From Thiohalocapsa sp. (GTDB lineage Bacteria; Pseudomonadota; Gammaproteobacteria; Chromatiales; Chromatiaceae), in NCBI GenBank assembly GCA_021736785.1, contig JAIPFF010000004.1, forward strand, positions 62,001 to 126,000: a DNA stretch of 64,000 bases, in the 5' to 3' direction. How positions within the stretch are numbered: the stretch's first letter is position 1; each line of letters begins with the position of its first letter. The notes under the pieces were generated by a model. That model searched no databases and was not told where the DNA came from. It was given only the letters and a program-made list of their open reading frames with translations. Positions 51,034 to 53,437 of this stretch are shown here, piece by piece. The position numbers and the translations under genes are program-made.

Positions 51034-51045
51034 CGTTGCGCAACG
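51034..51045. promoter_or_regulatory. Palindrome upstream of the octaheme gene
   Basis: CGTTGCGCAACG is a perfect 12-bp palindrome 95 nt before the octaheme cytochrome start. An imperfect larger inverted repeat follows (CGGAC-AT-GTTG at about 51061 and CAAC-GTCC at about 51085). These could be regulator sites; the regulator is unknown. Confidence 0.35.
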
Positions 51046-51140: not shown

Positions 51141-52784
51141 ATGCGAGCCTCGATCGCCATCCTGATCTCCCTTCTGGCGCTATGCTTCGCGGCCCCGGTC
51201 TCGGCCGCGCGCGACAACTGGCCGACACCGCCGGCCGCGCCCGTATCGCCGCCGCAAGTCTCCGGGCCGCTGCAGGGCGGCACCGCCGATCATGCCAAGT
51301 TCGAAGAGTTGCAAGGGCCCTTTGCGTCCGGCTCCGAGGTCACCGAAGCCTGCCTCGGCTGCCATACGGAAGCCGGCCAGCACTTCATGAAGAATATCCA
51401 CTGGACGTGGTCGTACGTCCACCCGGAGACCGGCCAGCAACTCGGCAAGCGCTACCTCATCAACAATTTCTGCACCAACTCCCGCGGCAACGAGGGCATG
51501 TGCGCGCAGTGTCACGCGGGCTACGGCTGGAAGGACGAGTCGTTCGACTTCACCGACGAGACGAAGATCGACTGCATCGTCTGCCACGAGACCACGGGTA
51601 CCTATTACAAGACACCCAACAGCGAAGGCCACGAGGCCTGCTCGGTGATGTTCGCGGGCAAGCCGCCCATCGATCTCGCCGCCGTGGCGCGCAGCGTCGC
51701 ACTGCCCGAGCGGGCAAACTGCGGCACCTGCCACTTCAAAGGCGGCGGCGGCGACAACGTCAAGCACGGCGATCTCTCCACTGCGCTGACCGAGCCGCCC
51801 CGCACCCTCGACGTGCACATGGGCGTGGACGGGCTCAATTTCGCCTGCACGGCCTGCCACGTCACCAACCGCCACGTTTGGGCGGGCAGCCGTTACCGCA
51901 TCATCTCCAAGGACACCGAGGGCACCGGCCTCCCCGGCCAGCGCACGGACGTGGCCACCTGTGAGTCCTGCCACGGGCTGTCGCCGCACCCGGTCGATTC
52001 ACTGGCGAGCTTCAAGCTCAACGACCATGTGCAGAGCATCGCCTGCCAGACCTGCCATATCCCGGAATTCGCCCGCGGCGGCGTCGCGACCGTCGTCGAT
52101 TGGGACTGGCGCACCGCCGGCAAGACGCGCGACGGCGAGGGATACCACGAGGAAGGTTACATCCAGGGCAACGGCGAGCACCGTTACACCTACAAGTCCA
52201 TCAAGGGCAACTTCACGTACGACGAGAACGTGGTGCCCGATTACGCCTGGTTCGACGGCCAGATGATCTATACCACCATCGACACGAAGTTCGACCCGAG
52301 CGCCGAGGTCATCGAGATCAACGGCTTCACCGGTTCGCGCGAAGATGCCGATTCCCGCATCTGGCCGTTCAAACGTATGCACACCTGGCAGCCCTACGAC
52401 AAGGGCAACGGAACTTTGGTCTACACGCACCTCTGGGGCGAGGACGACGCCGCCTACTGGGGCAACTACGACATGGGCGAATCCATCGCCAAGGGCATGG
52501 CCGACTTCGGGCTCGACTACTCCGGCGAGTTCGGCTTCATCGAGACGCTGTCGTGGTGGCCGATCACCCACATGGTGGCGCCCAAAGAAGAGGCACTGGC
52601 GTGCGGCGACTGCCACGCGCCCGAGGGCAGCCGTCTGGCATCGGTGGAGGGCGTCTACATGCCGGGCCGAGACCATAACCCTTGGCTCGACATCATCGGC
52701 ACGCTGCTGGTTGGCGGCACACTGGCGGGAATCATTATCCACGGCCTGGTCCGATTCTTCTCGCCCAAGGGAGAGCACCACTGA
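51141..52784 (+). CDS. Octaheme cytochrome c, tetrathionate-reductase (OTR) family, membrane-anchored
   Basis: This 547-residue exported protein has a signal peptide (residues 1-22, ending VSA) and exactly eight CxxCH heme sites at residues 71, 121, 145, 194, 236, 274, 302 and 488. Spacing, including the long gap before the last heme, fits the octaheme tetrathionate reductase family, whose members also reduce nitrite or hydroxylamine in vitro. A C-terminal helix (IIGTLLVGGTLAGIIIHGLV, about 518-537) would anchor it in the membrane, with the hemes in the periplasm. ATG at 51141 follows GGAG. The stop overlaps the cytochrome b start (TGATG), so the pair likely forms a quinol-linked reductase or oxidase. 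The true substrate is not deducible from sequence. Confidence 0.87.
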   Translation: MRASIAILISLLALCFAAPVSAARDNWPTPPAAPVSPPQVSGPLQGGTADHAKFEELQGPFASGSEVTEACLGCHTEAGQHFMKNIHWTWSYVHPETGQQLGKRYLINNFCTNSRGNEGMCAQCHAGYGWKDESFDFTDETKIDCIVCHETTGTYYKTPNSEGHEACSVMFAGKPPIDLAAVARSVALPERANCGTCHFKGGGGDNVKHGDLSTALTEPPRTLDVHMGVDGLNFACTACHVTNRHVWAGSRYRIISKDTEGTGLPGQRTDVATCESCHGLSPHPVDSLASFKLNDHVQSIACQTCHIPEFARGGVATVVDWDWRTAGKTRDGEGYHEEGYIQGNGEHRYTYKSIKGNFTYDENVVPDYAWFDGQMIYTTIDTKFDPSAEVIEINGFTGSREDADSRIWPFKRMHTWQPYDKGNGTLVYTHLWGEDDAAYWGNYDMGESIAKGMADFGLDYSGEFGFIETLSWWPITHMVAPKEEALACGDCHAPEGSRLASVEGVYMPGRDHNPWLDIIGTLLVGGTLAGIIIHGLVRFFSPKGEHH

Positions 52785-53437
52785 TGGCCCTATACCGCGT
52801 CAAGATCTTCAGCCTGTTCGAGCGTTTTTGGCACTGGTCGCAGATGCTGCTGATCGTGGTGCTGCTGATCACCGGCTTCGGCCTGCACGGCTTCCACGGC
52901 ATCTTCAGCTTCGAGCAGGCCGTCACGCTGCATACATCCGCCGCGCTCGCCCTGCTCGTGCTGTGGATCTTCAGCGTGTTCTGGCTATTCACCACGCGCA
53001 CTTGGCGGCACTTCATCCCCACCGTGTCCGGCATGTGGGGCGTGCTGCGCTACTACAGCTTCGGCATCTTCAAAGGCGAGCGGCACCCTTACCGCAAGGC
53101 GTACTGGCGCAAGCACAACCCTTTGCAGGCGCTGGCCTACCTCATGCTGAAAATCGTCCTGTTCCCGGCCATCTGGATCAGCGGCCTCGCCTATCTCTTC
53201 TATTTCGCGTGGCGCGATCTGCCGCGTGCGACCGAGTGGCTGACCGGCATCGCGATGGTGCATACGGCAGCGGCGTTCCTGATCCTCGCGTTCGTTTTCA
53301 TCCACGTCTACATGCTGACCACCGGGCACTCGTTCCGAGACCACCTCATGCCCATGATCAGCGGCTTCGACGAGGTCGATCTGTCGCCCGAGGAAGAGGC
53401 TTACCTGCGCAAGGATCAGCCCGGCGACATCCGCTGA
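52784..53437 (+). CDS. Membrane cytochrome b (formate dehydrogenase gamma / cytochrome b561 type)
   Basis: This 217-residue integral membrane protein has four helices with histidines in heme-b positions: FERFWHWSQMLLIVVLLITG, LHGFHGIFSFEQAVTLHTSA, ALAYLMLKIVLFPAIWISGL and TGIAMVHTAAAFLILAFVFI with HVYMLTTGHSF. That pattern fits the gamma-type quinol-binding diheme cytochromes. It should exchange electrons between the quinone pool and the octaheme protein encoded just before it, with which it overlaps by one base. Normal length. Confidence 0.87.
   Translation: MALYRVKIFSLFERFWHWSQMLLIVVLLITGFGLHGFHGIFSFEQAVTLHTSAALALLVLWIFSVFWLFTTRTWRHFIPTVSGMWGVLRYYSFGIFKGERHPYRKAYWRKHNPLQALAYLMLKIVLFPAIWISGLAYLFYFAWRDLPRATEWLTGIAMVHTAAAFLILAFVFIHVYMLTTGHSFRDHLMPMISGFDEVDLSPEEEAYLRKDQPGDIR

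Follow-up and report, generated by a model that had tools for sequence, protein, structure and literature searches.

The window, by which the whole analysed stretch of 64,000 nucleotides of Thiohalocapsa sp. DNA is meant, contains a gene for an OTR-family c-type cytochrome with eight hemes and, overlapping its stop codon, a gene for a diheme cytochrome b. We consider it probable (roughly 0.6) that the two products form a quinone-linked membrane complex on the plan of formate dehydrogenase-N and the group-1 NiFe hydrogenases, and that this complex most likely reduces tetrathionate or another polythionate. A quinone-linked complex is the best reading because the OTR protein possesses a C-terminal anchor, because its partner is a diheme cytochrome b of the FdnI/HyaC type, because both features strictly co-occur in relatives, and because some genomes present them as natural fusions.

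The open reading frame for the OTR-family cytochrome (547 amino acids) is located on the forward strand at 51141..52784, from the ATG at 51141 to the TGA stop codon at 52782-52784. The predicted protein matches the TIGR04315 model over its full length with 606.5 bits, above the curated cut-off of 375, contains the PF11783 cytochrome domain in a Pfam search and displays eight CXXCH motifs at residues 71, 121, 145, 194, 236, 274, 302, and 488. Residues 1-22 (51141..51206; MRASIAILISLLALCFAAPVSA) resemble a signal peptide in sequence and hydrophobicity, with a probable cleavage site before ARDN. Among named sequences the closest come from Thiohalocapsa halophila and Thiocapsa roseopersicina, with 88% in the core region, which places the host in the Chromatiaceae. 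With the solved OTR from Shewanella oneidensis (1SP3) most of the length can be aligned (348 bits), and the two proteins share the same catalytic core, the eight c-hemes and the position of a lysine ligand, whereas the Shewanella protein is soluble and has neither the C-terminal tail nor a cytochrome b. The lysine in question, Lys208, lies at the end of a GGGGD-NV-K motif (Asp205 to Lys208, 51753..51764), is invariant in 28 diverse OTRs and is aligned with Lys153 of 1SP3, known as the unusual ligand of the active-site heme. The predicted structure of the OTR protein is of moderate confidence outside the anchor (mean pLDDT 67.5).

That the OTR protein ends in a membrane helix had been proposed in the initial annotation and agrees with both the structure prediction and the hydrophobicity. 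Residues 514-540 (52680..52760) form a single helix in the predicted model, with block pLDDT values of 92-95 for residues 521-540, and the Kyte-Doolittle 19-mer maximum of this C-terminal hydrophobic stretch is 1.95. Near the predicted cytoplasmic end of the helix, His534 and Arg538 (52740..52754) are invariant in the 28-row alignment of diverse OTRs, and in a first survey of 79 loci the histidine and the arginine were each present in 77. In OTR tails the residues following the anchor histidine include on average 4.0 Lys/Arg versus 0.57 Asp/Glu, a positive-inside pattern suggesting that the C-terminus is most likely cytoplasmic and that the histidine is located near the cytoplasmic side. In E. 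coli, the anchor helices of FdnH (with FAGLIFHYIGIGPNK) and HyaA (with AAVGVHAVASAVDQRRRHN) also carry a histidine near the helix end, a similarity of position with the OTR tail that falls short of proving homology.

The cytochrome b gene (52784..53437, forward strand) encodes 217 amino acids and shares one base with the OTR gene in a TGATG junction, in which its ATG occupies 52784-52786; the overlap between the OTR stop and the start of a cytochrome b gene was thus correctly described beforehand. The protein matches PF01292 (Prokaryotic cytochrome b561 / Ni_hydr_CYTB) with 83.6 bits (gathering cut-off 30.1). Four histidines, His17 in TM1 (52832..52834), His50 in TM2 (52931..52933) and His160 and His174 in TM4 (53261..53263 and 53303..53305), are predicted heme-b ligands and are invariant in 77 of 77 cytochromes b that accompany an OTR; a lack of such histidines, which had been named as an observation that would count against the complex, was not seen. 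Together with Asn112 (53117..53119) they are conserved throughout an alignment that includes E. coli FdnI and HyaC, and Asn112 is aligned with Asn110 of FdnI, a residue of the quinone site. In a fold comparison the predicted model (pLDDT 88.6) matched FdnI, the cytochrome b of formate dehydrogenase-N (1KQF chain C), with Z 14.8 over 192 residues and the cytochrome b of hydrogenase-1 with Z 11.8. A single-sequence search of the PDB with the cytochrome b gave no match, and in a profile search of the PDB HyaC (4GD3) was the only solved sequence relative. Assignment to more narrowly defined families failed: the best NCBIfam match, to PhsC (NF011582), the thiosulfate reductase cytochrome b whose partner is a molybdenum enzyme, reached 95.8 bits and lies below the cut-off of 204, the match to the formate dehydrogenase gamma subunit (TIGR01583) remained at 20.7 bits (cut-off 115.85) despite the fold match with FdnI, and that to the Ni/Fe-hydrogenase cytochrome b (TIGR02125) at 45.9 bits (cut-off 121.5). 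In a cytochrome b tree with long-branch outgroups the OTR partners did not form a single clean clade. With formate dehydrogenase-N from E. coli (FdnH and FdnI) the pair has in common the four heme-b histidines, the quinone-site asparagine and the cytochrome b fold, and with E. coli hydrogenase 1 (HyaA and HyaC) the single C-terminal anchor helix with a histidine and a PF01292 cytochrome b. The catalytic subunits are different, being Mo/FeS proteins in formate dehydrogenase-N, where the anchor belongs to a ferredoxin-like subunit, and Ni-Fe/FeS proteins in hydrogenase 1.

To what extent tail and cytochrome b occur together was analysed in relatives. Members scoring above the TIGR04315 cut-off turned up in 143 of the 195 genomes searched from the order, in 29 of 369 at class level and in 45 of 398 at phylum level. 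Together with named genomes and extra regions these searches supplied the 204 loci that were read, a sample weighted towards high-scoring loci. Tail and adjacent cytochrome b were both present in 193 of the 204 loci, with genes that mostly overlapped or abutted, both were missing in nine, and two were mixed. The nine comprise Shewanella-like forms (among them L171, with 876 bits to 1SP3), a Hyphomicrobiales/Xanthobacteraceae pair (L135 and L158) and a few divergent ones. L135 and L158 are placed inside the anchored group in the tree, whose root is unsure, suggesting a joint loss of tail and cytochrome b. In one mixed locus (L062) the cytochrome b is present and the tail is apparently frameshifted; in the other (L228, G605:C156) a tailed OTR has no adjacent cytochrome b within the next 1.4 kb. 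The genome of L228 holds another OTR with a cytochrome b (L180), and a genome of the same genus as the one studied here (G007) has three full OTR paralogues above the cut-off (C28, C12, and C66), at least one of which (L018) is nearer to the Rhodobacterales type. Fisher's test gives p 7e-14 for the co-occurrence, a value that is descriptive only, as near relatives are not independent and relatedness was left uncorrected; a test of independent pairs on the tree had only 2-3 usable pairs and was not significant. A sampled OTR normally has both tail and cytochrome b, and it is the soluble form from Shewanella that is exceptional. The pair is kept across the phylum, and a loss of the pairing in relatives, which might have spoken against the complex, was not what we found.

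Natural fusions point in the same direction. Two genomes, each from a different family, encode OTR, anchor, cytochrome b and a response-regulator receiver domain in one open frame, of 920 amino acids in L218:343-3102 (reverse strand) and of 955 amino acids in L220:1271-4135 (forward strand), which is good evidence that OTR and cytochrome b work together. The earlier proposal of a two-subunit quinone-linked complex is thus strongly supported by the conserved histidines and asparagine, the FdnI fold, the co-occurrence and the fusions, and only the implied rarity of an anchored OTR has to be given up, given the 193 anchored and paired loci and a precedent published in 2019 (PMC6449678).

Three further, related loci have a separate OTR gene and a receiver domain C-terminal on the cytochrome b (L188:2989-4053 and L191:2998-4023, forward strand; L193:316-1371, reverse strand), the domain being confirmed by Pfam in L188 and L193 and recognised by eye only in L191. 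One would not expect such a receiver domain to be attached to a respiratory cytochrome b. The genome studied here also has a second module (L205:1450-3119 and L002:814-3063, contig C64), in which a heptaheme cytochrome of 343 amino acids, whose tail contains the similar anchor motif GVIAHGFGR, is followed by an overlapping PF01292 cytochrome b and then by an octaheme protein of 750 amino acids that is weakly related to OTR (86 bits). Anchor and cytochrome b look like a cassette common to several multiheme cytochromes.

We infer that the complex is formed in this organism and would work as follows. The eight-heme catalytic domain would be placed on the periplasmic side, the diheme cytochrome b, a four-helix protein, would receive the C-terminal helix of OTR, and between the quinone pool and the c-hemes electrons would cross via the two b-hemes. 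In the anchor, His534 and Arg538 would most likely be neighbours of the quinone site and of the b-heme nearer the cytoplasm. The most likely route would lead from quinol to the b-hemes, the c-hemes and finally the substrate, so that tetrathionate or another polythionate would be reduced by quinol and nitrite and hydroxylamine would be side or alternative substrates. If the quinone site faces the cytoplasm, as it does in FdnI, running the reaction backwards would generate membrane potential, whereas reducing a periplasmic substrate would consume it, a cost that would make ubiquinol-driven reduction unattractive. By our own reasoning menaquinol-driven tetrathionate reduction looks affordable and ubiquinol-driven reduction does not. 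The menA gene of the same genome (170 bits, cut-off 102) and the lack of a good NrfA match there are in keeping with the reductive reading.

The candidate substrates tetrathionate, nitrite, and hydroxylamine are taken over from the literature, and the window decides for none of them. A similar anchored OTR-cytochrome b pair has been known since 2019 from the orange Guaymas Beggiatoaceae, where BOGUAY_2386 is an OTR of 582 amino acids with predicted N- and C-terminal helices, a gene for a thiosulfate-reductase-type cytochrome b is listed downstream, and the expressed protein reduced tetrathionate at rates reaching 93 umol/min/mg, compared with 1.3 umol/min/mg for nitrite (PMC6449678). It resembles the Thiohalocapsa protein in family, terminal helices and adjacent cytochrome b gene and differs in that genes for a Phs/Psr-type molybdenum reductase are also found downstream, whereas the Thiohalocapsa pair stands alone. 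No neighbours conserved across families beyond the OTR-cytochrome b pair were found, sulfur and nitrogen genes included; as a clue to the substrate the neighbourhood offered only clade-level synteny, mainly in Rhodobacterales. FNR-type boxes (TTGA-N6-TCAA) precede the OTR gene in 21 of 174 relatives, where the rest of the loci would lead one to expect 1.1, and most of these boxes are 72-101 bases ahead of the start. No such box with up to one mismatch was found 5' of the OTR gene in the window, and a perfect 12-base palindrome that is not of the FNR type (CGTTGCGCAACG, 51034-51045) lies about 100 bases upstream of its start.

Purple sulfur bacteria normally oxidise sulfur compounds, and for that reason an oxidative role keeps some, if minor, probability. 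Here the same complex would run in reverse, its octaheme domain taking electrons from a donor in the periplasm, such as thiosulfate, which would become tetrathionate, or a different reduced compound of sulfur or nitrogen, and passing them via the b-hemes to quinone, building membrane potential like formate dehydrogenase-N and hydrogenase. The partner is indeed of the electron-input type of cytochrome b (FdnI fold, HyaC as sequence relative, the quinone-site asparagine of FdnI) and the host belongs to a family of sulfur-oxidising phototrophs, whereas the FNR-type boxes in relatives suggest anaerobic respiration and the published OTR assays known to us are all reductive (PMC6449678, PMC4484225). 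The genome paper on C. okenii describes an adjacent cytochrome b561/octaheme pair that is conserved among the purple sulfur bacteria and that A. vinosum induces on sulfide (PMC6374484), which would favour the oxidative direction if it were the OTR pair. However, the OTR pair and the second module of cytochrome b and octaheme protein both occur in C. okenii, and the locus tags cannot be assigned to one or the other, so that this induction was set aside for the OTR pair; the sulfide-induced pair may instead be the second module, which is also present in the genome studied here.

Less likely again is that the complex is a quinol-linked nitrite or hydroxylamine reductase serving ammonification or detoxification, with tetrathionate as an incidental substrate. 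The soluble OTR from Shewanella, which is fed by CymA via a small tetraheme cytochrome, reduces both nitrite and hydroxylamine (PMC4484225), but the Beggiatoaceae OTR favours tetrathionate about 70-fold over nitrite (PMC6449678). In favour of this reading, a search of the Thiohalocapsa genome for NrfA gave no convincing match (best 24.7 bits over a fragment); against it, the conserved neighbourhood is without nitrogen genes. Multiheme cytochromes often act as conduits. That OTR is a mere wire, by which electrons from the cytochrome b reach a soluble carrier or an extracellular path, is nevertheless very improbable even though the larger multiheme cytochromes of A. vinosum increase on pyrite (PMC11267869), as the position of the active-site lysine is invariant and a relative with an anchor has catalytic activity (PMC6449678).

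Beyond polythionate reduction by the quinone-linked pair, the distribution allows a broader proposal, which we make tentatively and with the odds somewhat against it. OTR may natively be a transmembrane redox-loop enzyme on the plan of formate dehydrogenase-N and hydrogenase, whose anchor would contribute an essential histidine and arginine to a cytoplasmic quinone site, so that catalysis would be coupled to the membrane potential; the soluble OTR that served to define the family would be without this half, and anchor and cytochrome b would be a cassette of several multiheme cytochromes, extended by a receiver domain in some lineages. OTR is usually pictured as a soluble protein of Shewanella that receives its electrons from shuttles. 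Should the rule seen in the sampled loci hold, most OTRs would be self-contained quinone-linked complexes, and measurements of the energetics and physiological direction of OTR catalysis would have to include the cytochrome b.
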